A stretch of DNA of 64,000 nt, from positions 1 through 64,000 of the forward strand of contig NC_082423.1 of NCBI RefSeq assembly GCF_004011695.2, in the 5' to 3' direction. The position numbers and the translations under genes were made by a program. The first letter of the stretch is position 1. Each line of letters begins with the position of its first letter. Of this stretch, positions 1 to 36,940 are shown in pieces. The notes under the pieces were generated by a model. The model worked only from the letters and a program-made list of their open reading frames with translations, searched no databases and had not been told where the DNA came from. Source of the stretch: Ascochyta rabiei (lineage: Eukaryota > Ascomycota > Dothideomycetes > Pleosporales > Didymellaceae).

Positions 1-90
1 CCTAACCCTAACCCTAACCCTAACCCTAACCCTAACCCTAACCCTAACCCTAACCCTAACCCTAACCCTAACCCTAACCCTAACCCTAAC
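1..90. repeat. Telomere repeat array
   Basis: Fifteen perfect tandem copies of CCTAAC (TTAGGG on the other strand) begin at the first base. The C-rich strand reads 5' to 3' into the window, so this is the left physical end of a chromosome. No variant repeats are seen until base 91. Confidence 0.98.
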
Positions 91-492
91 CGCATGGGTT
101 GGGGGCTCTACTTGGGTTGGGGGGATCCGCATGGGTTGGGGGCTCTACTTAGGTTGGGGGGCTTTACTTGGGTTTGCAGGTATCACTTAGGTTGTAGGGA
201 CTACTTTAGTCGGTGGCCCTTCTCTAGGCGTTTCTTTCTACGTCTCTAAAGTGTCTGTGTTGCTATTTGGCTGTTTTGCACTTTCTGACTTCTGCGTAAT
301 ACTAACGCGCTAGTTAGTCTGCCTCTGTATCTTCAAGACACGCAACTATAAATCTGCAGCGTTAAATAACTATAAATTATAAATTAACTTAAATATAATA
401 ACCTACAACTATAATTTGGTTATCTCTTTGTTTGTGCCTTACGTTGTGGTGGTTGCGTTAGTTCTGACTTTTGCGTGTTTCTCACGCAAGCC
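91..492. repeat. Subtelomeric spacer with G-rich 37-bp repeat
   Basis: Directly after the telomere, a G-rich unit starting CGCATGGGTTGGGGG occurs at 91 and again at 128 (period 37 bp). A third, shortened GGTTGGGG copy follows to about 175. The remainder to 492 is AT-rich and holds no gene I can support. Open frames here and in the next 1 kb on the plus strand are antisense to the helicase remnant. Confidence 0.75.
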
Positions 493-3400
493 TCAGTTAC
501 CACTAGCTGCGCTGTCCTCCTGCAGCAAGCTGCCATTCCTTTCAACGTACGACACAAACAAGACAAATACCTAGCATATCTTGCTGCTCTGTATGCCGCC
601 CTACCATACCGTGCTACCTATCTACATAAGTACCTTGTCAAATTCCACCTCCTCTTTCTGCCTAATCCCCTCTCTCTGCATCTGTACCCGCACCTAGTTG
701 TTAAACGTGCTTCCCTACGCCGTCTACACGCACATTATCAACATAAGCAGCACAGCCTTAAACTGGCAGCCAATCGCCAAGTTTTTCTGCCAGCCACCAT
801 CTGGATGGGGCTCGAAGCTGTCGCAAATCGACTGGGGAACACCGCACTAGAAGCAGCAGCTGAAATTCTCCCAGATTGCTTGCTCCCAGATTATCTTTGT
901 AACGTCCTTTACTCTATTGCGCACCTTATCCGCCTGCAGTCAATTACAGTAGGCAAGCTGGTGCTGGCCTGCATCTGTATGTTCCTTTGCCCGGCACCAC
1001 TGGCAGCACGCCTTCCAAGACTCGAGCATCTCCTCCAGCCTCTGCACCTCCTGCTGCTCGCGCAACGCCAGCTCCCTCTCCTGCTGGCTCAAGTTCCTGC
1101 GCGCCTGCAGCTGGGCGTTGAACTCGGCCCTCTCTGTCTCGTCCTCGTCGCCCACAACTGCTTCTACCTCTGCTCCAGCGCTGTGCACCTGCAGCTGGCA
1201 CCAGCCGCACAGCTCTTCTCCTGGCTCGCAGCCCTCTCTGGTGTGGTTTCTGTCCATCTTGCGGTCTATAATAACTCTCATGCAGCCGTCACCCTTAACA
1301 AGCTTGCGCACACCCTCCTCTGTGTCTTTAGCCCAGCCGCTAGTGTATTGCTTGCCTTGCGGGCTGTACGTGGCGCCTCTGATAAAAATAACCTTGCTAG
1401 GAAGCCCGCCGCAGCCTGCACGTCCTCCTATCTGCATTACGTCGCGCATTTTCTGCGTGTTCCTCAACCTAGCAAACAAGACTGCCCTGACAGTCTCTCT
1501 GTCGATCCCTAGCCCCAGCGCGTTCGTCGCCACAAACACGTGCTCTGTCCCTTCTGTGAGCTGGCGCAAGATCTCCAGCTTCTCCTCTGGCGTGCCTACC
1601 TCGCGGTGCTAGCAGACAGCTCCCAACATCGCAGCGTACCCCTGCGCCTTCTTTCTAGAGTTAGTGTACACCACAATCTGGCTAGGCAGCAGGTACTGTT
1701 GCTTCTTCTCCTCTACTAGCTCCGCCAGCATGTTAGCTTTGCTCTTTTCTTAATAGTTGTACCAGTGCACCTTGTACGCAAGGTTAGGCTGGCTTATTAG
1801 TGCACAAAACCACTTGCACTGCTCCTTTGGCGGCAGCGCTATTAGCTGGATGAACTTGCTCTCCTCTGTGGGTTTCAGCGTCGCCGTTAAGCACACAAGC
1901 TGTGTTTCCGCCTTAACCAGCTCGCGCAGCTTCAGCACCTTAGTCTGCCAGCCCTTAACTGAGTCTAGTATGGTGTGGCACTCGTTAATAACAACGCGGT
2001 CCAGCCAGCCTATAGATCGCTGCCGGTTAATAAACTGCTTGAATGCTAGCGTGGCCACGGACTTAGGCACCACCAGCACGATCGAAGCCTACTTGTGCGG
2101 CCGCTGGCTGTCCTACAGGACGCAGTCAATCCTAGCGGCTTTGCAGCGATCTATTATGTTCTGCTTAAGCGCAACTACAGGGACAACTATAATTGTAACG
2201 CTGGTAGAGCACAACGCTGGCAGCATAAATGTTGCGCTTTTGCCTCTGCCTGTGCCTATGATTACTACCACAGGGCTCTTCTGCTTTATGATGGCCTCTA
2301 TGGCGGGCTGCTGCACGCTTCTGAACGTGCTGCCCTTCCCCTGCAGCCGCTCAAGCGCTGCCTGAACGTCCACCCTCCGCATCTGCTTCCAGCGCCAGAA
2401 CTGTTCCTCCACCGCCTCCTTTCTAGCTTCAGCGGCCTGGGTCCCCTTTGTGGGCGGCGTCTTTAATGTCAAGCTGAACTGTAGAAAGCAGTGCCAGGCA
2501 ATGCTGACCTGCTAGAGTGCCTGTTGCTGCGCTATAATGCTAAAAGGCGACTTATCTATAGGCCTGCTGTAGATCTGACCAGCAAACTTGGACCCGTGCC
2601 CAGATCCCAGATCGATCAGGTCGTCTTCCACGTCTTCTTCTCCCTCGTTGTTGGCCCAGTTGAGCGCCTTCAGGATGTCCTTGTCTTAAAGGTACTGGCA
2701 GAAGGTGGCCTTAGTGTTGTGCCTCTAGATCTGAATGTTAAGCTTAGTCTGGAGCCAGTGCAGCGTAACGCGCTTGATGGCTTGCCGCACTTAGTCTGTA
2801 CCCCACCGCTGCGGCTTCTTCACAGCTGCTCGCTTGCGTTTCCTGCCTGATCCTGTCTGGGTGCTGCGCTCGTCTTTGTTGCTCCCTTCTCCCTCTTCTT
2901 CTTCTTCTTCCTCTCCAACTCCCTCTCTGTCCTCCTCCTCCTCATCTTCGTCAACGAGCCGCTGCTTCTTCCTTCGCTGCGGGCCAGCCCATGTCTCCTC
3001 TCTAATCGGCTCCCATAGGAAGGCGCTGGGCTCTGGGACGTGGCGCCTGCTCGATGCGCGCTCCAGCTTCTGCCAGAACAGGAGGACCATCCACAGGTAG
3101 TAGAACAGCAGCTCGCCCACTTCGCGCGGCAGGTAGCGGTGAATGACCTTGGCATTGCTGGTCTGCCTGATGCCTTTGTGGTACATGGTCACGTACACCA
3201 TCAGCCCGTCCTTAACAAACAGCCTGCAGCTCTCTGTGTTAGGCATGTTGGTGTGCGTGACCGTCACCAGCTCTGTACTGCAGGCAGGCGCACCACCTGT
3301 CATATGCACAAGCACCAGCAAGTGCTTGCAGAACAGCCGCAGCGCCTTTTTGTATCTCTGCACCTGCTTCTCCACCCACGTCACACCGCTCCCACCAGGC

Positions 3401-4408
3401 ACAAAAGCTTTTACGTCGACAAACGCCTCTCGCAGCTTCTTCTTCTTAACAATCTGTTAGTCTAGCCAGCAGCTTCTGTCTACGCCGCCAAACGTGTTAC
3501 ACTTGTCCTAGAAGAAGTTAAATCTGGACCGCAGCTCGGCGGGATTGTCCACGATCTTGTCCCATTCGATCGTCGGCAACGGGGTCGCTCCCTCAGCGAG
3601 CTGGCCGAGCTCGTCGACGTCCAGAAGCAGCAAGTCCCTCTCTAGTTCCCTACGCGTCGTCTCCACCAGGCTATAGATTATTAAGCGCAGCGCAGGCATG
3701 CTGTACTGCGTGTAGCTGTGCAGGATTGTGTCTCCTACCCACTAAACAGTGCCCTCCGCAGTTACCTTGCCCCTGATCTTCTTGCTATACGCCTGTAGCT
3801 GTAGCACCTAGTCTATAGGCGTAGGCAGGCTACTGTGCGTGCTTAGCGTTATAAAGCGGTTAACTATCTCCTGCACCAGCTCTACGTGGCTCCGCGCTAT
3901 GTCCTCTGCGTCCTCCTGTGCCCACGACTCTGCTTCTATAAGATCTGCTACCGCTTTCTTCCGCCCCTGCACTGCGCTGTACAGCACTAGCATCTTGGCT
4001 ACTATTATAATAGCAGACAGCGACGTTGTATACATAAGGGGGCTCTTCCACCTACAGTCGCAGTCTACGCCTAGCACGGCGGTTACGCTAACTAGGGCGC
4101 TTCTGTAGTAATTATCCTTAACGTGGTAGTCTAGCAGCAAAAGTAGAAAGGCGAGAACAAGGCGCTCTAGCTCCTTCTCTGTGTCATTATCCAGCTCACT
4201 TTTATTGTTATTGTTATTGTTATTGTCTGTATTCTTGCTGCTGGGCTGCTCCGCACACACAACCTGCTGGATCTGCCACAGCGCTCGCGTCTGTTTGCCA
4301 GTCAGTCGATACTGCGGCTTTCTCCCACTAATTGTCTTTGCTGTTGAAGTCTCCTGCGTGCCTGCTCTACCATTGTCTGGCCGCTGGCTAAGCACATCCT
4401 CGTTGTCG

Positions 4409-4440
<32 letters not shown>

Positions 4441-5440
4441 CGCGGCGCTGGCAGCCTGTGGCTCTGGCTCTGGCTCAGCCAGCTTGTGCGTCCGCCAGAT
4501 GTAGCAGACAATAGACAGCCAGCAGCAACTGTACTTAATTATCGTCTTCCCTGTCTAGAGCGCGTTGAACAGATGCTTGCTGTCTAGCGCTTCTACCTTG
4601 CGGCGCTCGATGTACTGCACAGCAGGGAACCTAACCACCTTAGGCGACGATGCTTGCTGGGCCTTGTAGATGACTATCTCAACCGCCTAGCACACCCTCG
4701 CGAGCGCATTCTCTGTCTTGCTGGGCCTCTAGAGCTGCGTCAGCAGCCAGCTGCGGTCGAAATGGCCAAGGTGGCGAGCCCAGCGGCTTCTTCTCAGCCA
4801 CTTGCGCTAAACGTAGCAGTTACTGTCTGGCTCAATCTGGCCGTGCGCGTCTTGCTAAGCCTTCTCTACTGCTATGCTGCTCTAGGTAAATAACGTCTTA
4901 AGGGCGCGTTGCAGGTTTTCCTCTTTGACAGCGACGCCCTGCGTGGCCTTATCTGCAGGCTGGCTGACCTCAAATAGCCGTCTAAGCTGGCTGGTGGGCT
5001 GGAACTTCTGGCACTATACTTCCCCTGTCCACATCTGGCTGCCTAGTGGTGGTTGTGCGCCCTGATGCGGCCGCCCTCTCCTGCGCAGGTTGTCCTACCC
5101 GTGCTCCTTCCTGCAGTGGTCCTTTATGCCCTGCAGCGCGCGCGCGATGTACTTACATAGCTCTACTTTACACTTAAATCTATCTTTGTACAGGGCTAAG
5201 TAAGGTAGTAGCTGTACCTTAGGCAATAGATATACAACCTTGTCTGCAGACGTTACCTATCCCGTAAGTGTTCTGGCTGCAGACGCAATTGCCTTCTGTG
5301 CTGCTACGGTCAGCTCCTGGTGGCTGCTGTGTAGGTAGGAGGACACCTGCGACGACAATACACCTTAACAGTAAGTCTTGCAGACAGCTATATAGTAAGT
5401 AGGAAGGTATGTAAAGACGCTGTTAAACAACTCTATATAA
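493..5440 (-). pseudogene. Telomere-linked RecQ-type helicase remnant (TLH1)
   Basis: One reading frame of about 1,650 codons runs from about 5440 down to a TGA at 493-495. I found no net frameshift where I checked it, only substitution-made stops, several at what look like Trp codons (for example WDN to stop-DN near 5100). In order: N-terminal Cys/His fingers (about 5360 and 5170-5105); a region with HMTGGAPA (about 3300); a tyrosine-recombinase-like H-x8-Y box, GHGSKFAGQIY (about 2570-2600); then SF2 helicase motifs. These are the Q motif, Walker A GTGRGKS (about 2240), NECH in place of DECH (about 1985), CLTATL, and ATNALGLGID with the GRAGC motif (about 1500-1400). The C-terminal Cys-rich tail has WENFSCCF (about 870). 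RIP explains the stops, the D-to-N change in motif II, and the loss of the Arg in the RGTE motif (here CSTE). Transcription ran toward the telomere. The start codon is not identifiable. Confidence 0.9.
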
Positions 5441-5754
5441 TAGTGTTAGTGTTTATATAGACAGGAAATGCTGTTAGGGTTTGTAGTTTATTAGAGACAA
5501 GCCTCTCTGTTTTAACTGCTACTGTGGATTAACGTGCTCTTATTAAGACGTTGTTTTAGGTTTGTTGCTCCTCAAGTTCTGCCAACGCTGGTTAGTGTGG
5601 TGTGGTGGTACATCTGTGCGCGGCCTGATTTTGTGCATTAGGCTAACGCGCGCCTTAGGGGACCCGGTCAAAAACCAGCCCCCGCCCCCAGCACTACCCA
5701 GCATCTTGTTCTGTTGTTCTACAGCTTGGCTAGAGCAACACACACCTCTTTAGC
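5441..5754. promoter_or_regulatory. Intergenic region between divergent TLH1 and partner remnants
   Basis: About 310 bases separate the 5' ends of two divergent dead genes, so any promoters of both lay here. I see no tandem repeat comparable to the 52-bp array of the second module, and no clear TATA element. The label rests on gene arrangement only. Confidence 0.4.
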
Positions 5755-7533
5755 ATGTACTGGTCTACCGCGCTATACAACGCTGCAGAGCAGTTTAATA
5801 GCAGCGCTCGCAGCTTTCCTCTAGCTAGCAAAGCTAGTTTTAGCAGCAAGTATGGGTATAAACTGCCAAATAAGGACTACAAGAAGCTCTTCTTCTGCTG
5901 AGCGACCATCTCACGCTTGCAGCGTGATCCAGGTGCTCGTCCGCACAGCGCAGGATAGCTGATCCCCACCTGTGACAATGCCAGCGTCTGCAAGCCCGTC
6001 TTTATTGCCCACTCTGTCTTGTTAGCAATCTGGCTTCTGCGCGAGACGCTCGCTGACGACGTCCTGCCAAACGATACCTGGGACTGTCTGGTCTGCGCGG
6101 CTTAGTCGCTTGCGGAAGATGGCATAGTAGAGCCGCCGTCTGCGCAGAAGCCGTCTGCCTCCCCTCTGACCTAACGCAAGAAACGACCAGCACCCTCTGC
6201 ACTAGCGCTGTCGCCTAAGCGCGCTCGCACAGAAGCGGTTGAGACGCCAGCAGCCAGCCCTCAGCCATCTGAGCAACTCAGCGAACTGGAAGAGCAGCCA
6301 GGAGAGCAGCCCGGAGAGCGGCTAGGACAGCAGCCCGGAGAGCGGCCGGTAGAGGAGCAGCACACCACCACCACCGTTACTAACAACAACTGCCGCGCTG
6401 AGCAGGAACGCATTAAGAAACACGAAGCTGCCCTAATAGAGCGCAGCCTGGATCTTAGCCTCGTCGCGCCAGACTAGAGGGCAGGTGACGATGAATGTGG
6501 CGCCTACGCGTCTATATCCTCTAAGGACAAGAAGGTTATATTATAGCTTTTTAAGCAGGAAGCTGTAGGTAGTAACAAGAAGAAGTTGAACTTCTATAAC
6601 GCTGTTAAGACGCCTTACTTAAAGGCACGCGAGTTTATAGCTAAGGCGCGCGCTCTTAGGAGCTTGTTGTCTTAAGAGCACGCTGCCCACTTCCTCCAGG
6701 TCTGGCGAAAGCGCGGAACGCTCTTTAGCGGCGGAGTGGCTGCGCAGTATAACGCCCCTTCTTTGCAGCTGCAGCATTTGCGTGCAATATTGGTTAATCC
6801 CTTACGGCAGAGCAGCGCAGACCAAGCGTTCTGCTCTGCGTGGGAGCGATGCAACGTCTATAACAAAGTAATAAAGTTAGTGCATATTAAGTATAGGTAG
6901 GCGCAGGCGCTCCTGGGCAAGGCGTTGGCCGACAAGCTAGCGCTGATCAAACACAACAACAAGCTTGTTAGCAGCAATAAGACAAATTAATTTAGCAAGG
7001 GCCTCTGCTGAACAGAGGCTATAGACTCTCTCCTGCACTTAGTTAACTCCAACCCTAACCCTTCTAAGAAAGAGCGGGATCTCTTTTAGGTGTGGCTTGC
7101 TAGAGCATTTAAGTGGTACAGGGTGGCTGAAGGCCTAGGCTGGGGCGTGCTCCTGGTTATGCCGGACAACGCTATACTAAAGACTTAGATTAAGCACAAG
7201 ATCTGCTCCTAGGGCGTTAACGTCTTTATTGAGCTAGTTAGGAAGAAGCGTCCGGATGTCTGTCTTGCAGCTAAGCAATTCGATGAATGGTTAGGCCCAG
7301 AGGGCATCGCGGGAGGTGAGATCAAGGGGAAGAAGACGCTGAGCATTAAGGTTAAGGCTCTAGAGACAACTTATAAGGTAGAGGAGATTAAGGACAGTAA
7401 AGACAACAGCGAGGAAGAAGAAGAGGAAGCAGACAGGCGCGTTAAGATTGCGCAGTCGCAGGCCCGCTTTAAGAGCGCGCCAGCGGCGTCTCTGCGCCAG
7501 ACAATGCTGCCTAAGTTGTTTAAAGCTATATAG
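5755..7533 (+). pseudogene. Divergent partner gene of TLH1, decayed
   Basis: A single frame of 592 codons runs from ATG 5755 to TAG 7531-7533. It has 13 internal stops and no frameshift, so the decay is by point mutation. Many stops sit where Trp or Gln would be plausible, as expected from RIP. The conceptual protein opens MYWSTALYNAAEQF. It has a short Cys pair region (WDCLVC, about residue 110), a Pro/Glu/Gln-rich low-complexity middle (about residues 160-205), a Lys-rich globular second half with many aromatic residues (residues 230-540), and a Glu run followed by a basic tail ending PKLFKAI. I do not recognise the family. It starts about 315 bases from the 5' end of TLH1 on the opposite strand, and that arrangement is repeated at the second helicase locus. 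The function is unknown; the pairing suggests a joint role. Confidence 0.72.
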
Positions 7534-8100
7534 CATAAACGTTAGTATATTTAAGTTATAGTTGCTAGCGCTTGTTATATGTTATAGTAATGATATAGTT
7601 AGTCTCTACGCGCAGGGGCGCGCTCGCTTACAAGTAGGGAAGGGGCCAGCCCTGCAAACCACCAACCTCACCTCTACCTTAACCCGCAACGTTATCTACT
7701 TTTTCCATCCACGCAGTAGTCAGGCAGCAATTCTAAAAAGTGCAAAATGCGCGCAGGGCTTGGTTGCACCCTTTTGCTGGGTCGCATCTAGCCGGCGGCG
7801 TGGCGCTGGGGTCTTATTCTATTGTTGAAGCGGTAAATGAATTAGGGTCGCCCCGCCCTACAAACCGAAGGGGCCGCACAGGCCGCAAACAAATGAATTA
7901 GGGTCTAATTTGAAAAGTATTAACTGTCAGAGCGTTAGCCGCATCTTAGCTTAAACAGACTTAAAAATAGAATTCTAGCGTACAACTGAATAGTATTCCA
8001 GCGTACGTTGTAACTGAAAATACGCAAGTGTCCTGTAGCTGTTGTTACTAACAAACCTAAAGCTGTAACTCCAGTGAAGGTACACTGCAACTACCTATTT
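7534..8100. other. Non-coding spacer, mixed composition
   Basis: No supported gene. A 15-base direct repeat, AAATGAATTAGGGTC, occurs near 7836 and again near 7890, flanking a GC-rich stretch. Composition shifts at about 8100 from mixed to extremely TpA-rich DNA. That marks the inner edge of the next module. Confidence 0.5.
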
Positions 8101-9342
8101 AGGATAGAGTCTAAAAAAAAGAAGGGTTTTAGGTATAAAGAAGAGTAAGAATTATTTTCTAGTATAGTTACTATAAGAAGCTAGCTATACTTCTATAGAG
8201 TCTACTTTCTTATAGCTATATAAAGAATAAAACCAGTATTTTTACTTAGTATACTTTTATAAAGAAGTAAAAGCTACTTTATCTTTCCTTACTACTAGAT
8301 AGAGATAGATAGAAACTACTTTACTTTTTACTTATAAATAAATAAAAGTAAAGACTTTACTTAAGCTTAAAAGTAGTAAGCTAACAACTATTCTTACTAG
8401 TAGAATACTAGAAGTACTACTACTAGTAGCATAGTATAAAAGATAGAGGGAAGCTTACTTATAGTAATAGATTTTATAAGAAAAAAACAAAAAAAAAAAA
8501 AAAACTTCTAGCTTTACTAAAAAGAAAGGAGAAGTAGGTTCTTAGTTAGCTTAAGAATAGAGTAACTAGTATAAAGAATAAGTAAAAGAGCTAGCTAAAA
8601 GAAAGAACTAGCTAGAAAGTAGTAAAGTAAGCTTTAAAAAGAAAATACTATATAGTAAGATTAGCAACGCTAGTTTGTTACTAGATAGATAAGAAAAGAA
8701 AAGACTATAGAGATAAAGAGATAAAGCTTCTTACTATACTAAGTATAGAAAGTCTATATAGATAAGTAGTAGAAGAAAAGCGTTTTATAGTTTATTTACT
8801 AGTTAAGTTAGCTTTTACTTACTTTCTATTCTTTATTTACTATACTTAGTTTATACTTACTTTCTATTCTTTATTTACTATACTTAGCTTATACTTACTA
8901 GTTTTATCTCTAAAGCAAAGAGACATCTCTTATTATAAGTAGAATAGAAAGCTTTTACTCTTACTTTTCTAGTACTATATAAGTAACTTCTTTTTTTACT
9001 ATATAGAAAGAATTATAAGATAGTACTATAAAGTAAGAAAAGAAAGTAGTATTAACTAGTAGAAAAATACTAAGATAAAGAGAGTAGAGATCTAGTAGTA
9101 GTAAGGTAGATATGCTATAGAGTAGCTTTTCTACCTACTTTACTAAAGTTAATAGCTAGTAGCTACTCTTCTTCTGCTTAAAAAGAAGTAGAGAGTATAG
9201 ATTATAGAGTAGAGTATAGAGTATATATTAATAAAGCTAACTACTAGAATAGTATTCCCTTCTAAAGAGAATAGAGAAGATAAAATACATATGTATATTT
9301 TACTATTTAGAAGCTACTATAGTAGAGGGAAAAGTAGAGCTT
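8101..9342. other. TpA-rich non-coding flank of helicase module
   Basis: Strongly CTAG/TAGTA-rich DNA with almost no CpA, TpG or CpG. It contains a poly-A run near 8487-8504 and a roughly 40-bp direct duplication near 8815-8890 (ACTTACTTTCTATTC and following). No open frame of useful length is seen. It lies 3' of the second helicase gene and probably holds its 3' flank and one terminus of the module. Confidence 0.5.
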
Positions 9343-11647
9343 TTAAGTATAGAAGATAGATTTTAAGCTTTCTAAAGTGGTTTCTTCTATACTAGTAGCT
9401 AGATTGCTAGATACTACGCTAGTAGAACTAGTAGTAGATTTACTCTCTACTTCTTTTATATCTTTTTCTAGGTCTAGTAGTGTAACTTCTAGTAGAATCT
9501 TATAAAGGAAAAGAACCTTCTTAGTATCTACTTCTACTACTTTACTTAGTAGCTCTACTATTATAAAGTCTTCTTTAGTAGTATAGCTAGTATCTTTTAA
9601 ATAGTCTTCTTTAAGCTTAGATAGTGTTTCTAAGCTAGAAATAGGGATATCTCTCTTAATTAGTTCTTGTAGAAATACTATATAGTTAACTATTATATCT
9701 CTATATAAGCAAGTAGCTTTACTCTTAGAGTAGCAGATAAACTTAGGTAAATAGCAATAGTAGTATACTAAGTTAGGTGGTATAATACCTCTATTATTAA
9801 TAGGTGTTTTTATAACTTTAAAGATAGATCTTACTCTATTCGCTAAGCTACTTTTATAGTTAGAGCAATCCTCTAAAGAGTGTGTGCTATAGCTAGTATA
9901 CTTATATCTAAAGAAGTAGTTAATACAAAATTTAGTAGTAAAATCTTCTATTTTTTCTATTATTTTAACTTTTAAGGTCTCTACTAGAATAGAGTTGCTA
10001 GTTAGGCTTTCTTTAGCTTTTTCTAGACTTTTACTTCTTTTTAAACAACTAATACACTTAGCTACTTCTAGAGAGCAAGTTAGCTCTTGCTTATCTTCTA
10101 GATATTCTTCTAGTATTCTTCTATTACAAGTTCTATCTAGTAGAAACTCTATTAACTTGTTATTATCTATTACTTTAAACTCTTCTAACGTAGTTATACT
10201 ACTAGCGTTAATAGAAGTCTCTACTAATCTATCTTTTATAGTACTAGGATAAATTAGAAAGGCTTTGCCTTCTTTTAACAATCTAGCTACTCTACCTATA
10301 CCTTGTATAGTATTAATAAAGCTATTATAGATATAGATAAAGAGAATACTCTTAATAAAAGGATAATCTATCCCTACTATTAAAGCGCTAGTAGCTACTA
10401 TGCTAGTATAAGTACTATTATTACTATCTAGAAATAAGCTTAGATTTTTCTCTAGTAGCACTTTTTCTTCTAGATCTATAGTGCTATAGTAGTAAGGTAT
10501 AGCAAACGCCTTAGCTACCCTTCTAGCTTCTTCTTTAGTTCTAGTATAGAGAATTATCTTCTCTTTACTTTTTAAAGACTTTACTTCTTCTATTAGAATA
10601 CTTCTAGCTATCTCTATAGGCTTATTACTTTCTATAGGTATGTAGCTTATATTATCTCTAGTAGTGGACTCTTTTATAGTATAGGGCTTATAGATACTAA
10701 ACTTTAACTCCAATAGATTAAGTAAGCTACTAGGTAGCGTAGCGCTTATAAATACTAGATTAAACTCTAGATTAAGAATCTTATTAATACTTTCTAGCCT
10801 AGGCCTAAAGCTTTCTTCTAGTAGCAGTAAGTGTGCTTCTTCTAAGAAGATAGTAGTAGATACTCTATCTATCTTAAGACTATACAAGTAGCTTAAAAAG
10901 CTAACCTCTAGTAATAAATCTATAGATATAAACAGTGGATTTGCTTTTATCTCTTTAGTATCTAGCGTATCTAGATTACTAGCATCTATTAGCATACTAT
11001 TAAGCTTTAAGCTTCTAGATCTATTATAAAGGTCTTTTAGTAAGCTTATTCTAGGTACTACTACTATATACTTTCTATTAGAATATAAGTAGCTAGGTAG
11101 AAAGAAGAGATTGGATTTTCCTCCTCCTGTTTTAGATATATAGGTTAAGAAAGGAGTAGAATCTATTATCTCTTTAATAGCTTCTTCTTGCCTAGGGCTT
11201 TTAAAGTCTTCTATTTCTATATTTATACTTTTATATAGCTCTTTTAAGCTCTCTAGTAAAGTCTTTCTTCTACTACTTATAGCTAAGTTAGTTAAGCTTC
11301 TAAGTTTAATATTCTCTCTAATAATCTTTTCTCTCTCTTCTAGACTTATACTATTACTACTACTAGTTTTAGTAATAATACCTTCTAAATAGTTTAGCTT
11401 TTTAAGCTTAGTGCTTATAGGGCTAGTTAAGTCTATACTAGACTTTCTTTTACTAGGACTACTAGGTAGAATAGGTAAAGTGCTAGTTAGACTAGTCTTT
11501 TCTTTTTCTATATCTCTATTTATAATAGCTTCTATTTTCTTACTATAGCTACTAGAAGGTATTTCTCTAGCAGAAGAGCTTTTAGAAAAGATATCTTCTT
11601 CTTCTTCTTCTTCTTCTTCTTCTTCTTCTTCTTCTTCTTCTTCTTCT
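9343..11647 (-). CDS. C-terminal helicase half of second telomere-linked helicase (TLH2)
   Basis: An open frame runs from the GAA tract to TAA at 9343. It carries a complete SF2/RecQ-like core: Q motif FKSPRQEEAIKEI (about 11190), Walker A TGGGKS (about 11125), VVVPRISLLKDL, motif II EEAH (about 10835), motif III SATLP (about 10740), then ATSALIVGIDYP (about 10380) and motif VI QGIGRVARLLKEG (about 10290). A Cys-rich tail follows, including YYYCYLPKFIC (about 9750), at spacing matching the tail of TLH1. The first ATG in this frame (10995) lies after Walker A, so this half cannot work alone. It must be read from the upstream 1,423-codon frame, one base out of register in the tract. Trp is absent, and Met is nearly absent, consistent with loss of TpG. 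Whether the frame slip is real or a tract error is open. Confidence 0.85.
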
Positions 11648-14600
11648 TTCTTCTTCTTCTTCTTCTTCTTCTTCTTCTTCTTCTTCTTCTTCTTCTTCTT
11701 CTTCTTCTTCTTCTTCTTCTTCTTCTTCTTCTTCTTCTTCTTCTTCTTCTTCTTCTTCTTCTTCTTCTTCTTTATTAAAGTCTAAGCTAGGTAGAATACT
11801 ACTACTAAGACTTATAGTAGTGTTTCTATTTAATAGCGCTTCTCTTTCTCTATTAGTAGTAAGATCTTTTATATAGTTAATATTACTACTAAGAATACTA
11901 GAGCTAGTTCTAAAAGAAGGCCTAGCTAGATCTAGTTTATCTTCTAGTAGTACCTCTTTACTTTTACTAGAGTTAGCATCTTCTTTTTCTTTACTAGTGC
12001 TACTGCTACGATTCTCTTCTATAGTAGAGGTAACTAGATTCTCTTTATCTCTATTAAGTTCTTCTAGAAGAAGACTATCTTCTATATCTAGACTATAGTT
12101 ACTACTAGAGTCTTCTTCTAGAATAGCATCTTCTTCTATAGCTAAGTTACTATTACTACTAAGATTATCTTCTATAGATCTATTCTCTTTAGTAGTAGAA
12201 GCACTAGCGCTAGATCTACTACTACTTCTAAAAGTACTAGTAGGTATTCTTTCACTTATTCTATTATCCTTACTACTTTTACTAGTGCTAGTAGTATAGA
12301 CTAGAGGCTTTTTTACTTCTTTACTTCTACTAGAAGCTAGGCTTTTACTCTTATAGTTTTCTACTAGGTTTAGAATAGTACTATACTTATTCTCTTCTTC
12401 TACACTCTTTTTCTTACTAGCACTAGTAGTAGCTATAGAAGTACTAGGTATATAATTAGCACTAGTAAAGCTATTACTAGAGTCTAAGCTATTGCTTCTA
12501 ATATTCCTTCTACTATTATTCTTACTAGTAGAAGTAGCCTCTAGTCTAGTAGTAAAGATAGGATATAGACTAGAAGTACCTTCTTTAGTGCTTTTATTAA
12601 TCTTATATAGACTTCTTTTATTTCTTATCCTATAAACTCTAGTACTATTATCATCTTCTAAGCTAGCGTTATCTGCTAAGCTACTAGTAGTACTATTACT
12701 AGAGATATCTATTATATCTTCTTCTTTACTAGGTAGCGTATCTACTCTAGTATAATGCTTCTTATTAATAGGCTTTTTTAGTATAACTACTTTAGGGCTA
12801 CTAGTAGTAAGAGCCTCTTCTTTTCTAGAACTAGAGCTAGAGCTAGAGCTAGAACTAGAGCTATTAATTATAAACTTCTTTCTCTTACTTATAGTAGTAG
12901 GAGGTCTGCTCTTCTCTCTACTAGAGCTACTACTAGAGCTACTACTACTACTTTCTCTTCTTATAGTATCTTTACTAGAAGTATTATTATATACTTTATC
13001 TAATATATCCGGTGTACTAGTACTATAGTTAAAGTTATCTTTTAAAGTAGTATGGTTATTAAAGTCTATACTACTATAGCTTACCTCCTCTTCTCTATTA
13101 CTAATAGAAGAAGGTGTTTTACTAGAGCTTATAATGTTTATATCTTCTATTAACTCTTCTATACTCTTAGCTTCTTCTCTTCTAATAGGCTTTACGCTAG
13201 GTAGAATAGAGTCTTCCAGCCTAGTAGCTATAGCGTTAAAGACTACTAGCTTCTTATCTATAGTTCTACTACTAAGCTCTAGAAAGTTAAAGATTCTAGT
13301 AGTAAAATCTATAGACTTTTGCTCTAGGCTACTAGTTTTACTAGCTAGGATATTACTATCTCTAGCATAGTTACCTAGTGCTACTTTAGTAGAGTGATTA
13401 AACAGTATATCTTCTATATTATTCTCTTCCTCCTCTTCTTCTAGTATACCTTCTAGATCTATATTTAATCTATTAATAATAATATACTTTATAGCTTGTC
13501 TATAAGTAGAGATAGAGACCTTTATACCTAGAAACTCTAGGCTTTTAATACTAAGTAGATTAGAGATATCTTTACTAGTAATAAGCTTATTATTAACTTC
13601 TAGTAAATAAGGACTAGCTTTCTTTATATTAAACACCTTAAAGTTTAGGTAGTTATAGAAAGGTATGCCTAAAGTTATATATACTTTTAGTAGGTAGCTA
13701 AACTTAGGGCTAAAGAACCTAACTATGTTATTATCTCTATTAGTAATACTATTAGACTTGCTATAGCTAGTCTCTACTTTTATTAGCTTAGTAATGCTAT
13801 CTATATATAGGTTTCTAGAGCCTAGCTCTAGGCTATTAGTATACTTTAGTAACTCTACCTCTGTGCCTCTAATAGGGCAAGCTGCTAGTAGATAGAAAGC
13901 TAGACCTAGTAGCTTAATAAACTCTTGCCTATCTTTTAGATATTTTCTTATATTATAGATATTAAAATCTATACTAGTGCTAGTAATGCTATTAATAAAG
14001 AACTTAGAGAAGATAGAGCTAGTATCTTCTAGTCTTTTAATTAGGTAGAAGCTATAGTCTTTTAGGTTATAGTCTCTATTGTTAGTACTATCTTCTAGAA
14101 AGCTATAGGTAGGACTAGTATCTACTACACTATCTTCTAGCTTGTTAAAGTCTAGATCTAGATTACTAGGATTAAGATAAAGAATTCTAGAGAATAGAAA
14201 CTCTTCTAAGGTATCTTCTATATAGACAAAGAACTTCTTAAGCTTCTTAATATCTACTTCTAGACTATTATCTACTATAAAGAGATTGCTACTAATATCT
14301 CTTATTCTAGGCTTAGTTAGCGTGTTAGTAGCTATAGCTCTAGTATAAGCTCTTAAAGAGGTTAATTCTTCAAAGCTATTACTAGAGTTAAATGTTAGAT
14401 TTCTACTATAGTAGTCTAGAAAGACCTCTTCTAAGCTAGTAGAATTACTACTAGTAGTTAACTTATTATATCTACTATTAACTATAGCTATAGAGAATAG
14501 CCTAAGAGAATAGATTAGATAAGAGCAATCTTGCTCTATGCTAATAGCTGCCTTAGTAACTCTTGTATTTAGATCTATACTTTTAATAGCTAGAAAAGTA

Positions 14601-15853
14601 ATAATAGCACTATTAAAGCTAGGGTATTCTTCTAGGTTATCTTGTGCTAGAGGCTGCTCTAGCAGCGTATCTACTATAGCTATTAAATACTCTTTACTTC
14701 TAGCAACTAGCGTAGTAAATAGAGTATCTAGTATACTATCTTCTAGGTTTTCTTTACTAGCTTCTAGAGAGTCTTTTATATTCTCTACTATAGTAGCTAC
14801 TAGCTGTTCTACTAGAGAGGGTACAATAGGTTGCTTACTAGTAGTAGACTTATCTCTAGCTCTTTCTCTAATAACTCTATATAGATAGACTATAAATAGA
14901 CTAAAATACTTATAGTACTTTCTTTTCACATCCTTACTAGAGAGTAGGCTAAAGTCTTTTAGATTCTTCTCTTTATTAGTAGCTAGTACCTCTGTTTGTA
15001 GCTGCTGCCTAAGCCTTCTATTTAGCTTCTCTACTAGAGGTTCTATAGAGTATAGAGTCTCTTCTACTAGCTTAAGTAGATTGTATTCTACTCTCTCTTC
15101 TGTAGTAGTGCTCTTCTTTATAGGAATAGTAACTAGCTTAAGTAAGCTATTGAGATTCTTATTATTAAGAAAGAGATAGAACTTAGTTTTACGTATAGTA
15201 GAAGGTATCTCTTTATTCTCTAATAAAGTAAAGCTTAGATTAGTAGCATTAGTAAACGCTTCTAGCTCTTCTCTATAGCTATTAATAAGGCTGTTAGAAG
15301 TACTAAGAGTAGTAGTAGTAATAGTAGGCTCTATAGCGCTAGTAGTACTACTATTATCTTTTATAATAAAGTAGTTTAATAAATCTTTCTTCTTAAATAG
15401 ACTTTGTATCTTAATATTACTTTTATAGAAGGTCTTTTTACTACTAGTAAAAGGTATTTCTTTCTCTTTTCTATGCTTTTCTAAGTGTAGGTATAAGCTT
15501 TTAGTAGTACTAAAGAGACTATTACACTCTTTAACTAGGCATAGATAACCTTCTTCTATAAGCTTTAGTTCTTTAAAGAAATACTTATAGTTCTCTATAG
15601 AGTGTAGATTATTAATATTAGCTATAGAATAGTCTTTAATATCTTCTAAAAACCTTTTTACTTCTCTATCTTTAAAAGAAATTCTATGCTGCTTTATAAG
15701 ATGCTGCTTAGTTATTTCTACTATATTAGTACTTTTATTACTATTAATACTAGTTAGGCAGCTACTATTAGAGCAGAATAGAAGCCCTAGATCTTTAAAG
15801 TAAGATAAGTTATAGCCTAGCTCTATAGTAGGAGTATAGTTAGAGGTAGACAT
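11582..15853 (-). CDS. N-terminal recombinase-like half of TLH2
   Basis: An open frame of 1,423 codons from ATG 15853 to TAA 11582. Two C2H2-like fingers open it: FCSNSSC with QHLIKQH, and LCLVKEC with LHLEKH, within the first 140 residues. Near residue 658 is ACPIRGTEVELL, aligning with HMTGGAPACSTEL of TLH1. It is followed by STYRQAIKYI (about residue 785) and FNHSTKVALGNYARD (about residue 820). R, then RQA, then H-x8-Y is the spacing of tyrosine recombinase active sites. After about residue 900 the protein is low-complexity Ser/Thr/Glu, with polySer runs, and ends in about 40 Glu and 18 Arg from the GAA/AGA tract. There is no Trp, and the only Met is the start. The remaining Cys, His and Gln sit largely in the conserved motifs. 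This is the N-terminus of the helicase half downstream; the predicted whole is about 2,170 residues. Expression is unproven. Confidence 0.82.
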   Translation of the reverse strand: MSTSNYTPTIELGYNLSYFKDLGLLFCSNSSCLTSINSNKSTNIVEITKQHLIKQHRISFKDREVKRFLEDIKDYSIANINNLHSIENYKYFFKELKLIEEGYLCLVKECNSLFSTTKSLYLHLEKHRKEKEIPFTSSKKTFYKSNIKIQSLFKKKDLLNYFIIKDNSSTTSAIEPTITTTTLSTSNSLINSYREELEAFTNATNLSFTLLENKEIPSTIRKTKFYLFLNNKNLNSLLKLVTIPIKKSTTTEERVEYNLLKLVEETLYSIEPLVEKLNRRLRQQLQTEVLATNKEKNLKDFSLLSSKDVKRKYYKYFSLFIVYLYRVIRERARDKSTTSKQPIVPSLVEQLVATIVENIKDSLEASKENLEDSILDTLFTTLVARSKEYLIAIVDTLLEQPLAQDNLEEYPSFNSAIITFLAIKSIDLNTRVTKAAISIEQDCSYLIYSLRLFSIAIVNSRYNKLTTSSNSTSLEEVFLDYYSRNLTFNSSNSFEELTSLRAYTRAIATNTLTKPRIRDISSNLFIVDNSLEVDIKKLKKFFVYIEDTLEEFLFSRILYLNPSNLDLDFNKLEDSVVDTSPTYSFLEDSTNNRDYNLKDYSFYLIKRLEDTSSIFSKFFINSITSTSIDFNIYNIRKYLKDRQEFIKLLGLAFYLLAACPIRGTEVELLKYTNSLELGSRNLYIDSITKLIKVETSYSKSNSITNRDNNIVRFFSPKFSYLLKVYITLGIPFYNYLNFKVFNIKKASPYLLEVNNKLITSKDISNLLSIKSLEFLGIKVSISTYRQAIKYIIINRLNIDLEGILEEEEEENNIEDILFNHSTKVALGNYARDSNILASKTSSLEQKSIDFTTRIFNFLELSSRTIDKKLVVFNAIATRLEDSILPSVKPIRREEAKSIEELIEDINIISSSKTPSSISNREEEVSYSSIDFNNHTTLKDNFNYSTSTPDILDKVYNNTSSKDTIRRESSSSSSSSSSSREKSRPPTTISKRKKFIINSSSSSSSSSSSSRKEEALTTSSPKVVILKKPINKKHYTRVDTLPSKEEDIIDISSNSTTSSLADNASLEDDNSTRVYRIRNKRSLYKINKSTKEGTSSLYPIFTTRLEATSTSKNNSRRNIRSNSLDSSNSFTSANYIPSTSIATTSASKKKSVEEENKYSTILNLVENYKSKSLASSRSKEVKKPLVYTTSTSKSSKDNRISERIPTSTFRSSSRSSASASTTKENRSIEDNLSSNSNLAIEEDAILEEDSSSNYSLDIEDSLLLEELNRDKENLVTSTIEENRSSSTSKEKEDANSSKSKEVLLEDKLDLARPSFRTSSSILSSNINYIKDLTTNREREALLNRNTTISLSSSILPSLDFNKEEEEEEEEEEEEEEEEEEEEEEEEEEEEEEEEEEEEEEEEERRRRRRRRRRRRRRRRRRYLF
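11594..11772. repeat. (TTC)n / (GAA)n microsatellite causing frame slip
   Basis: About 60 TTC triplets with a single extra T near 11648. On the minus strand the upstream side reads GAA (Glu) and the downstream side AGA (Arg) in the 1,423-codon frame, which then stops 12 bases after the tract. The helicase frame reads GAA on the downstream side. So this one base separates two otherwise continuous halves of one gene. Confidence 0.92.
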
Positions 15854-16677
15854 AGTAGTATACTTAGCTAGTTAAATAGAGTTCTTTTATAGTATTTCTA
15901 TAGGTATATTAGTAGGCTTCTAGTAGAAGATGTAGCTAAGGGTAGAAATAGAGAATACTTACTTTTATAGTATTGAGTAATAGATATAGAAGGTAGAGGT
16001 CTGTAGATAGAATAGTATAGTAAAGAGTAAAGTAGAGAGTAGAGTAGAGAAGGATAGTAAAGAGAAGAAAGAAGTGTTTATATAGATAGCTAGCTCTAGC
16101 TATTAGTAAATCTAATTAGCGTTTAGTTACTAGAGAATTACCTTTATTCTTAATTCTACTGCTAGTAATTAAGAATTAAACAAAGAGGAATTAGTTAATT
16201 CTTCATTATTCTACTAGTAAGTAGAAATGAATAAAAGAAGAATTAGTTAATTCTTAATTACTGCTAGAATAATTAAGAATTAATTAAAGAAGAATTAGTT
16301 GATTCTTAATTATTCTACTAGTAATTAGGATTTAATAAATAAAGACTTAGTTAATTCTTAATTACTGCTAGAACAATTAAGAATTTAGTAAAGAAGAATT
16401 AATTAATTCTTAATTATTCTACTACTAATTAAGGATTAAGTAAAGAAGAATTTATTAATTGTTAATTTTAGTATAGTAAATAGAAGACTACTAGTTAAGA
16501 CGTAATAGAAAAGAAGATAATATAAAAGTAGAGAAACTCTCTTTCTATTTTATACTACTACACTACTATCTACTCTTCTATAACCCTAACTACTTATACT
16601 AAGGTACTAAGCAAAATACTAAAGGTAAGAATTCTATATACTACTATCTTCTAGAAGCTAACTTCTATCTTTTCTAG
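15854..16677. promoter_or_regulatory. Divergent promoter region of TLH2 module
   Basis: 824 bases lie between the start codons of two divergently transcribed genes. The centre is filled by the 52-bp array listed separately. A CCCTAAC telomere-like heptamer lies in the 5' leader of the partner gene near 16582. No other gene is seen. The regulatory role is inferred from position. Confidence 0.5.
16135..16466. repeat. 52-bp tandem array (about 7 iterons)
   Basis: The core GAATTAGTTAATTCTT, itself an imperfect palindrome, recurs at 16188, 16240, 16292, 16344, 16396 and 16448 with exact 52-bp spacing. A diverged first copy is at 16135. Between cores is a second conserved block, TATTCTACTAGTAATTA. 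Spacing is kept although the bases have drifted, which is unusual for a decaying repeat. Confidence 0.9.
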
Positions 16678-17341
16678 ATGTCTAGCATTGAGACGAGCTA
16701 TAAGAATCTTAACTATAGTACTACTATAGCTAGAAGATTTCTTAAAGAAAATCTTAGCTCTTTAGCTTTAACTTCTACCTATCTACTAGGAAAGAATGTT
16801 TATAATATAAGAGACAAAGCTAGTAATAAGGTAGTAGGCTTTCGAGGCTACCTAGTTAGCTATAGCAAGCTACCTAGCTTAGTAAAATATATTTATAAGA
16901 AAGGTATAGCAGTATAATCTTATAGTAGAAGTATCTATGCTAATAGCAGACGCTAGGCTTAGAACTAGGCTATACTAGGTTCTTTATTATTATAGTAAAC
17001 TCTTTTAAGAAAGAAGAATACTATATTACCTACTATAATACTAGAGTAGAAGATAAAGTTACTCTAGTTACTAGTAAAGAGTTCTTAGAAGAGTACGTTA
17101 GTAATAGACTCTATACTATTCTAGAGCTAGATAATAGGTATGTCTCTATGCTAGTATAGTAACTATAGTAGGCAATAAGTCTAGCCCTTCCTTCTTTAGT
17201 AGAGAAACACTAGAGTACCTAGAGAATTTAAAAGAGAAAGAAGAAGAAGAAGAAGAGAAAGAAGAAAGTACTACTAGTGTTACTAGTTCTACTAGCTCTA
17301 CTAGTATAGAAGAAGAAGAAGATCTTTTTATAGACTATTAA
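16678..17341 (+). CDS. Three-exon partner gene of TLH2, 187 residues, unknown function
   Basis: Predicted exons are 16678-16903, 16957-17137 and 17185-17341, joining to 188 codons in frame. Intron 1 (53 bases) starts GTATAG, has a GCTAAT branch-like site and ends GCTAG. Intron 2 (47 bases) has the canonical donor GTATGT, a GTAACT branch-like site and ends TCTAG. Without splicing the frame stops at 16917. The protein opens MSSIETSYKNLNYSTT and has a mixed hydrophobic/Lys-rich N-terminal region. Exon 2 (LELGYTRFFIIIVNSF at its start) is well ordered, and the end is an acidic Ser/Thr/Glu tail ending DLFIDY. I do not recognise it. It diverges from TLH2 across the 52-bp array, mirroring the TLH1 locus. 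The TLH1 partner also has a Glu-rich run near its C-terminus, but no other similarity is visible by eye. Other splice choices are possible for intron 1. Confidence 0.62.
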
Positions 17342-18230
17342 ATGCTATAGCTCTATTTTAAGTAGAAGTCCTTTAAGGTTAAAATTAGTTCTAGAATCTT
17401 ATCTACTTTTTAAAAAGGATAAACTAAGAAAAAAGAAATGTCTCTAGCTATAGTATAGGTATATAAATAGAAATAAGATAGAATAAAGATTAGTTAATGC
17501 TATTACCTTTATAAAAGGATTGTTAGTTCTTCTCTTTAGTTACTGTATAAATAGAAAGTTACTAGCTATTGCTAGTAAAGAATAGTCTTAGAAGAATGCT
17601 TTTCTCTATATTATACTTTGTCTTTATCTATTAAAAGAGCCTCTACCTATATACTAGATAGAAAAGATAGAGAATTCTCTTTTCCTATTTCTATATCTTA
17701 AGGGTACTTATTACTATTAGCTATATAGAGAAATAGAAAGAATTAACGCTAGTTATTCTTATAGATACTAAGTATAAGAAGTAAGAGTTATTCTCTCTAG
17801 ATATTCTCCCTAGGTATTCTCTCTAGTTATTCTATCTACTTATTATCTATAAGGGATAGAAAGCTAGTTCTTCTCTCTAATAATCTCTACTAGATATTAC
17901 TTTCTAGAACTACTATCTCTACTACCCTAGGATAGGCTATAACTGCTAGAAAAGAAGAAAGAAAAGAAGAAGAAAAAGAAGAAAAGAATAAAAAACTAAC
18001 TACTTATTCTAAAGCGCTAGTTGTTCTTTTAGATAGGTTAGTAGAGTATAATACCTAGTAAATAGCTAGTAGATAGCTATTAGCTATAGTGTTTATAGCT
18101 ATAGAGATAGTAGAATAACTAAAAGATAGTTATAGATACTAATAAAATGTTATTAACTATTTTATTATCTTCTAAATAAGCTACTAGAAGAGACTAGATC
18201 TGGTAGAGATATAGTAAAAGAAGCTAAAGC
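17342..18230. other. TpA-rich non-coding flank
   Basis: Continues the extreme composition of the module. No frame of length or recognisable motif is seen on either strand. It probably contains the 3' flank of the partner gene. Confidence 0.45.
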
Positions 18231-18436
18231 TTAAGAAATTTCTAGATATCCTAAAAAAGTAGACATCTAGAAATTTCTAGATAACCTAAAGGAGAAGATA
18301 TCTAGAAATTTCTAGATATCCTAAAAAAAAAAAAGACATCTAGAAATTTTCTAGATACGTTACAATAGGCTAGAAATAGCAAGAAGAAAAGAAAAAACAA
18401 AAAAGTTTCTAGATATCCTAAATTTCTAGATATCCT
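18231..18436. repeat. Palindrome cluster at module edge
   Basis: The palindrome ATCTAGAAATTTCTAGAT is perfect at 18265-18282 and extends to a perfect 22-bp palindrome at 18298-18319. A one-base-longer variant lies near 18336, and half copies near 18236 and 18418. The cluster ends exactly where ordinary host DNA begins (about 18437), so it may be a terminus of the inserted module. Confidence 0.75.
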
Positions 18437-18712
18437 GCTGGATAAGCTGTTAGGATCACGCACTCCGGGTCAGGTCGTTTCCTGATAGGAAAGGCTCGTA
18501 TGCGGAATTAGGCTGTGCATGAAAAAAATACAAGATCGATTGCGTTAATGACAGGTTTGATTTGTGTCGCGTGTGAGATCAGATATATGGGGAACTGTAA
18601 AGACTGTGTACTAAGATGAAAAGAGAATGCCATCCATGGAGATATTGTACAAAAACATGCTTCGCATGCTCGTCAATCCTTCACGTGTGCTCATATAACC
18701 AGGTCACGGGCA

Positions 18713-36046: not shown

Positions 36047-36940
36047 AGTGGTAAAAGGGTAGGGGTTAGGTAGGGGTAGGGTACATCACGTGATGTACCC
36101 CTACTCTACCCTACCCCTACCTACGCTAATTCCATACCAAGAGGGTAGGGGTAGGGTAGGGTCCACATAGGGTAGGGGTAGGGGTAGGGTAGGGTCTACA
36201 TGGGGTAGGGGTAGGGGTAGGGTAGGGTCCACATAGGGTAGGGGTAGGGTTAGGGTAGGGTCCACATGGGGTACGGGTAGGGGTTAGGTAGGGGTTGGGT
36301 AGGGGTTGGGTAGGGTAGGTGTCAGCGTCCAACTCTTTAACTAAAGCGGTTATTGCAAAACCTTGTACTACAGAAATGTAGAGCAAAATAAGCGCCTTTA
36401 AACGGTCTATATACTGTAAGATTCCGATTAAAACTGGTGTAGCTAGAGCAGTTGTTACGTAGGCCTACACTGTAACAACCTAGGACTTACACAACAACTG
36501 CTGTAACTCTGCCAGTTTTGATCAGAGTCTCACGGAATATAGACTATTTAAAAGCGCTTGTTTTGCTCTACATTTCTGTAGTACAAGGTTTTGCAATAAC
36601 CGCTTTAGTTAAAGAGTTGGACGCTGACACCTACCCTACCCAACCCCTACCCAACCCCTACCTAACCCCTACCCGTACCCCATGTGGACCCTACCCTACC
36701 CCTACCCCTACCCTATGTGGACCCTACCCTACCCCTACCCCTGGTCCGTGCGGACCGTACCCTACCCCTACCCCACGCTAGAGGTACCCCTACCCTCTCC
36801 CTACCCAACATCCGTGCGGACCCTACCCTACCCCTACCCCATGTGGACCCTACCCCTACCCTACCCCTACCCCTAGTCCGTGCGGACCGTACCCAACCCC
36901 TACCTAACCCCGGGGTACCCCCTAACCTTTTGCCAGCGTA
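36047..36940. mobile_element. Foldback element made of G-rich telomere-like repeats (894 bp)
   Basis: The element is a long inverted repeat with its centre near 36475 and a loop of about 35 bases. The left arm is rich in GGGTAGGGGTAGG units, the right arm in the complement. The inner arms share non-repetitive sequence, for example GTGTCAGCGTCC near 36319 and its complement near 36620. A perfect 22-bp palindrome lies at 36079-36100. Its ends carry TGGYAAAAGG in opposite orientation. There is no transposase. Open frames across it are products of the repeats. An exact 11-bp duplication flanks it. Confidence 0.85.

Follow-up and report, generated by a model that had tools for sequence, protein, structure and literature searches.

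How does a gene of more than two thousand codons come to be open in DNA that has the composition of repeats altered by repeat-induced point mutation (RIP)? The question is raised by the left end of contig NC_082423.1 in the 40.9-Mb genome of the fungus Ascochyta rabiei (assembly GCF_004011695.2), whose first 64,000 nucleotides, which start with (CCTAAC)n, are here called the window. The gene does not stand alone; it belongs to a repeated subtelomeric element, of which it is the only large gene, and we consider it probable that RIP has exhausted its own targets in this element's lineage while selection kept the lineage functional. All copy comparisons below were made within the genome to which the window belongs, and individual copies are referred to by short names (C2, C7 and so on).

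An open frame in DNA depleted of CpA and TpG

The window copy of the element (8105..18454, minus strand), delimited by blastn, by composition and by end sequences common to other copies, forms a block that is poor in CpA and TpG. From about 8.1 to 18.3 kb the G+C content is 26–31% per kb, the CpA and TpG odds are 0.04–0.33 and the TpA odds are 1.36–1.73. A combined CpA+TpG index calculated over 500 bp has a median of 0.22 and a maximum of 0.37 in the 19 windows that cover the element, compared to a minimum of 0.41 in the 79 other AT-rich windows of the 64 kb. The coding and noncoding parts of the element are alike in composition. Simple drift toward AT is rejected as an explanation because it is CpA, TpG and CpG in particular that are scarce and TpA is high, and the joint depletion of CpA/TpG and excess of TpA is the composition of a RIP-affected repeat.

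Two long frames lie on the minus strand of this block. The first (11582..15853, 1,423 codons) encodes zinc fingers, a tyrosine-recombinase-like domain and a low-complexity linker, and the second (9343..11781, stop to stop) continues the same protein with a RecQ helicase that matches Pfam DEAD and Helicase_C. They join inside a (GAA)n tract (11594..11772, minus strand) whose length differs among copies, and it is a length change in this tract that makes the window copy switch frame. A first-pass annotation, made from the letters of the window alone, described two abutting frames; both are indeed open, but they are really one gene, since copy C2 carries it as a single open reading frame of 2,125 codons. 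The same annotation reported a RIP-type dinucleotide pattern, which is evident within the coding sequence itself (CpA odds 0.24–0.26 and TpG odds 0.14–0.22 in the two frames, with TpA raised), and an absence of Trp with Met nearly confined to starts. Trp is in fact missing from both frames and each has one Met, although that of the second frame is internal.

The number of stops that might have been expected is large. When random DNA is drawn with the trinucleotide composition found in the noncoding parts of the element, 2,125 codons contain 222 stops on average and never fewer than 184 in 200 trials; the other five frames of C2 contain 72–468. A chance open frame in AT-rich DNA is therefore rejected. 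The first-pass annotation had proposed a comparison with simulated RIP, and its expectation was borne out: when RIP was simulated on four paralogous frames of telomere-linked helicase (TLH) genes (557–728 codons, with stop counts scaled to 2,125), 126–145 stops arose with 80% of the sites hit and 31–35 with 20% hit, whereas C2 has no in-frame stop and all eight copies of the gene, read in the C2 frame, have eight in total (one each in C15, C9 and C7, two in C11 and three in C13). Relative to the commonest codon of the other copies these eight arose from TAC, TTA, TAT, TAC, AAG, AAA, AAA and GAA; every one is a transversion and none is of RIP type (C-to-T or G-to-A). Thus the frame is not filled with RIP-type stops as that of a RIP-inactivated repeat is. 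Other damage consists of 1-bp deletions (two in C17 and one in C13), an insertion of 1,866 bp in C9 and the GAA frameshift of the window copy. Altogether, seven of the eight copies are broken somewhere by a stop, frameshift or insertion.

Few targets are left in the gene. It contains 132 CpA+TpG dinucleotides, compared to 530 (standard deviation 16, 300 draws) when the same protein is encoded with random synonymous codons. With 18 Gln codons and no Trp, hitting every CpA and TpG that remains in C2 would give 18 stops.

Copies, ends and derivatives of the element

The gene with its helicase part occurs eight times in the genome, and the other seven copies are 93–99% identical to the window copy there. 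None of the eight is more than about 57 kb from a contig end, so that the gene is multi-copy and subtelomeric as TLH genes are. Outside these eight-copy counts are C16, where two pieces with 97–99% identity cover roughly codons 1–870, a 5' end on C1, and diverged fragments on C9, C4, C5 and C12. The 5' terminus of the element is CCTAAC (18449..18454, minus strand) in the window and CCTACC in C15 and C17; six copies share this CCTA(A/C)C end and each abuts different DNA. The flank of C2 aligns with an uninterrupted related repeat on C3 as far as the junction, where both have CCTA, an alignment that fits what is expected of insertion. The other half of this site was not found in the examined part of C2, and the empty-site result is one-sided. 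At the 3' side, the window copy ends (at 8105) sooner than C2, C7, C17, C9 and C11. One 3' continuation is common to five copies and another to the window copy and C15, and these two alternatives may reflect exchange between chromosome ends. Tandem repeats of 52 bp lie in the element's 5' noncoding part (16134..16467).

A deletion derivative is present at two chromosome ends, on C5 and C12 (L045 2929–9952, and L046; 99.7% alike). In it the first finger is joined in frame to the C-terminal residues, and the resulting stop-to-stop frame of 172 codons lies in DNA that is similarly depleted; the derivative's DNA identity to the element is 69–82%. The genome also has an internal fragment with 60–62% protein identity to the element; this fragment, on C4, shows less depletion (CpA 0.47, TpG 0.52). 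Inserted inside the element copies of C9 (loci L037/L038) and C15 (loci L031/L032) are transposons of about 1.86 kb whose inverted ends lie at TA sites. Distal to the depleted block, C2, C7 and C17 (L033, L035 and L041) have a tandem-repeat region with open frames of 261–358 codons (18845–19753 in C2 coordinates).

The predicted protein

The protein, of about 2,125–2,170 residues, reads as two C2H2 fingers followed by a putative tyrosine-recombinase-like domain and a RecQ helicase. The first C2H2-like finger (15686..15775, minus strand) has the form C27-x4-C32 ... H51-x4-H56, and its four ligands are retained in all eight copies. The second (15473..15541, minus strand) has the form C105-x4-C110-x12-H123-x3-H127, with Tyr in place of C105 in C2 and C15; the coordinates of both fingers are derived from codon numbers. 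The catalytic residues of tyrosine recombinases are R, K, xxxR, H and Y in that order, and the presumptive catalytic region here (13367..13936, minus strand), recognised by alignment with TLH paralogues, has R662, K699, R785, H820 and Y829 in the right order in all eight copies, which suggests a recombinase function. Residues 640–830 are 24–26% identical to two TLH paralogues of the same genome, with R, K, R, HS and NY in common. Starship captains are DUF3435 tyrosine recombinases of large fungal mobile elements. No DUF3435 (PF11917) match was reported on the protein or at the element loci, and membership in the captains was rejected on that basis.

The helicase portion matches Pfam DEAD and Helicase_C over cut-off. 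The NCBIfam recQ model covers residues 1505–1905 with an E value of 2e-20, although this match falls short of that model's curated cut-off, and the match to E. coli RecQ (PDB 1oyw; E value 4.6e-10) extends across the zinc-cysteine region. The helicase core (10006..11205, minus strand) has a Q motif, Walker A TGGGKS, EEAH, SAT and motif VI QGIGRVAR, and the RecQ-Ct-like zinc cysteines C1865, C1882, C1889 and C1892 (10045..10128, minus strand) lie in the region aligned with E. coli RecQ. The motifs are kept in all eight copies except that C13 has an altered motif V and Phe at C1882.

Selection and the codons that were retained

Codon comparisons excluded gapped codons, stop codons and codons around the GAA tract. 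The overall ratio of nonsynonymous to synonymous substitution rates (dN/dS) between the diverged copies C2 and C13 is 0.37; by region it is 0.26 for the helicase, 0.34 for the recombinase region and 0.69 for the linker. A dS of 0.47 in their first 190 codons indicates a different history there, probably through recombination. The deletion derivative compared to C2 over 104 codons gives dN 0.19 and dS 0.68 (a ratio of about 0.27). Three recent copy pairs have ratios of 0.45, 0.92 and 0.89. A dN/dS measurement had been suggested in the first-pass annotation as a check on function, and its outcome is divided, with purifying selection between diverged copies and values nearer neutrality between recent ones. 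Constrained old branches together with less constrained young ones are the pattern of an element that is selected while it propagates, and not of selection on each copy. The earlier idea that the gene kept its function through RIP agrees with an open frame in RIP-type DNA and with the constraint between diverged copies, but the recent copies of this multi-copy element evolve nearer to neutrality.

Loss of a CpA or TpG would be nonsynonymous at 54 of the 74 sites kept in all eight copies, compared to 89 of 156 other sites (Fisher p 0.02). Among the Cys and His residues that are invariant in all copies, 15 of 17 coincide with zinc-binding or catalytic positions (12 belong to recognised motifs and three to clusters identified by spacing only). 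This much of the first-pass proposal, that the leftover Cys, His and Gln lie at zinc and catalytic motifs, holds; Gln does not follow it, with only two of 18 (Q1511 and Q1806) at recognised motifs. Because of these Gln codons, and because loss would be synonymous at 20 of the 74 always-retained sites, the stronger statement that only indispensable vulnerable codons were spared goes too far.

RIP in the genome and on recent copies

Most other repeats in this genome that were examined carry stops. These are present in 144 of 150 scored RVT_1 reverse-transcriptase matches (the best 150 of 538 candidates), in 144 of 150 scored DDE_1 transposase matches (the best 150 of 666) and in 15 of 16 DUF3435 matches; the tallies were counted by eye, and introns may add some of the stops. 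The transposase matches within the insertions of C9 (two) and C15 (one) have 5–6 stops per 170 codons each, and 94 of the 210 differences between inserted transposons C9b and C15 are of RIP type, differences that may predate insertion and are only supportive. In C2, C7 and C17, 17 of 84 CpA/TpG sites were hit in the adjoining 1.7 kb, compared to 9 of 198 inside the depleted block (p 1.5e-4), in a small comparison of three copies polarised by majority. The adjoining stretch, of which three near copies and a partial fourth exist, is not more repeated than the element. Three loci in the genome match the DNA-methyltransferase family, and none of them was assigned to a RIP enzyme.

Probable target exhaustion and its alternatives

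The explanation that we favor, target exhaustion under selection, would run as follows. As a long repeat, the element would have been exposed to RIP repeatedly. Copies that gained stops would have left no descendants, and lineages in which CAA, CAG and TGG codons (and other CpA and TpG) had been replaced would have survived. RIP would in this way have consumed its own targets until the present gene, as in C2, was limited to its 18 possible stops; with so few left, the gene can remain mostly open even though many near-identical copies of it exist. A further claim, for which we would give about even chances, is that this transposable element has evolved a lasting resistance to RIP by shedding target dinucleotides along almost all of its length, with RIP itself as the selecting force. 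The cost to the protein would have been the loss of all Trp and almost all Met, and Cys and His would persist chiefly at positions required for zinc or catalysis. Such resistance would allow 10–12-kb repeats of about 99% identity to be largely open while most other examined repeats carry stops.

Several observations weigh against target exhaustion and the element's putative recombinase. The stretch adjoining the depleted block in C2, C7 and C17 diverges faster at other sites too (0.018, compared to 0.005–0.014), which reduces its excess of CpA/TpG hits to only about twofold, and it may be the element's own less depleted tail, because a 72% relative of it also follows the derivative. Among singletons (those of C13 and of the GAA tract excluded; 68 of the 148 come from C11), CpA/TpG gains outnumber losses by 45 to 14 and only four of the losses are of RIP type, so RIP has been weak on these copies since they last spread. 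CpA odds at the three codon phases are 0.29, 0.16 and 0.29, where the last phase is synonymous, and the CA/(CA+TA) share by phase (0.22, 0.05 and 0.04) runs in the opposite direction, so there is no consistent nonsynonymous excess. C2, the sole copy without a stop, frameshift or insertion, has lost zinc ligand C105 to Tyr, and no copy is thus certainly functional. Finally, the recombinase-like region has no Pfam match and no PDB profile match, and its AlphaFold2 model (built from four sequences) has a mean confidence score (pLDDT) of 31, which leaves its fold unconfirmed.

The weak recent RIP and the zinc ligand lost from C2 leave room for both an adaptation and a relic. The latter, which we regard as possible but doubtful, supposes that old RIP set the composition, that RIP then lapsed (for example through asexual spread) and that one lucky open survivor was re-amplified, in which case depletion protects nothing today. 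It would account for the balance of singletons and for the weak constraint between recent copies, and the account in the ArME14 genome paper that most reports on Australian A. rabiei find a single mating type (PMC7341154) is also in its favor. However, a survivor of saturating RIP should carry more than 100 stops, and one of light RIP about 31–35. The dN/dS values of 0.26–0.37 between copies that were already depleted, and of about 0.27 to the derivative, suggest that selection and depletion coexisted for a long time, and RIP-type changes are found beside the depleted block within the same duplicated segments.

Usefulness to the host could in principle have kept the frame open if the gene encoded a telomere-maintenance helicase, and the RecQ domain, the purifying selection and the subtelomeric position of every copy are what such a role would predict. 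We think this unlikely, given recent pairs with dN/dS up to 0.92, damage in seven of eight copies, and the derivative and the uninterrupted C3 counterpart of the C2 flank, both of which are the behavior of a mobile element. A horizontal origin, in a donor whose DNA is naturally poor in CpA, TpG and CpG, appears very improbable. It would explain why the block stands so clearly apart from other AT-rich stretches of the window and why the GC-rich TLH paralogues are so distant from its helicase in protein sequence (see below); but the RIP product TpA is raised, noncoding DNA is affected as coding DNA is, and the derivative and the internal fragment, in the same genome at 69–82% DNA and 60–62% protein identity, make the family look like an old resident.

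Under target exhaustion, then, a repeat of 2,125 codons appears to persist because it has little left to mutate, and this raises the testable question of whether changes in its own sequence can carry a mobile element beyond the reach of a mutational defence, and what its protein pays for that. RIP indices, moreover, do not equal "dead", since the most RIP-like block of the window holds its longest open frame.

Relationship to TLH genes and other systems

TLH genes of filamentous fungi are described in Magnaporthe, Metarhizium, Ustilago and Fusarium and, like the element's gene, encode RecQ-type helicases and are multi-copy and subtelomeric in these accounts (PMC11893274, PMC12857005); RIP-like changes are mentioned for the Magnaporthe genes (PMC2621366). 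The TLH paralogues of the A. rabiei genome share the recombinase-like R, K, R and HS...NY with the element. Those examined are mostly GC-rich (loci of 44–58% G+C) with near-normal target content (whole-locus CpA odds 0.96–1.40 and TpG odds 0.81–1.50), and are only 22–32% identical to the element protein over the helicase, whereas the element is AT-rich and almost free of targets. By its helicase and location the element thus appears to be near the TLH family; it behaves like a mobile element with a recombinase-helicase, which may be moved by that putative recombinase, and by profile is not a DUF3435 captain. It resembles the Starship captains in its tyrosine-recombinase-like residues and in belonging to a large fungal mobile element, and differs from them in lacking a DUF3435 match, in the fusion of the recombinase-like region to a RecQ helicase, and in that nearly all captain matches in this genome hold stops.

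RIP is commonly regarded as a defence from which a long repeat escapes if it spreads outside meiosis, or if it is sheltered, too diverged or too short, according to the discussions in PMC10787394 and PMC2621366. We recognised no element made RIP-resistant by target depletion in the literature searched, whose coverage leaves out most subscription journals. The histone H3 gene of Pseudocercospora fijiensis, amplified by a hAT element, is similar in that a frame was kept through RIP by purifying selection; there, as summarised in PMC6710886, the original host gene is intact and the amplified copies are inactivated, whereas here the repeat itself is largely open in many copies. The long terminal repeat retrotransposon crapaud of Podospora poses the same question of whether an element evolves to escape RIP. 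That account gives a burst pattern and does not favor an arms race (PMC10787394), and depletion of targets in coding sequence is a feature of the present element.

The first 8 kb of the window and other subtelomeric features

Positions 1–8000 of the window contain telomere repeat and then TLH1, a GC-rich TLH gene with broken frames that is decayed without RIP depletion. The first-pass annotation took TLH1 as the usual outcome of RIP, a comparison that its CpA/TpG content does not support: over 1–8 kb the odds are 0.74–1.35, close to normal, the composition resembles that of the paralogue loci, and its broken frames are therefore not explained by RIP depletion. TLH1 may have undergone light RIP, as its TpA/ApT ratio is 1.2–2.0 and, in the one piece that aligned to other TLH loci, of about 200 bp near the telomere (about 95–294), 5–7 of 13–25 differences are of RIP type with TpA on the window side. 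The TLH paralogues at L029, L025, L018, L019 and L013 have recombinase-like residues upstream of the RecQ domain (the set is complete in L029 and L025), and fungal TLH genes in general may be recombinase-helicase elements.

Deeper in the subtelomere, at 36096–36928 of the window, is a degenerate telomere-like satellite made of CCCTACCC units, and the element copy of C17 is joined to repeats similar to this CCCTACCC-type satellite. Direct repeats of 17 bp are scattered through the window at 31742, 50322, 50694, 54065, 55861 and 58350, several of which are related (the CACCACCRAGCGGTCAC type).

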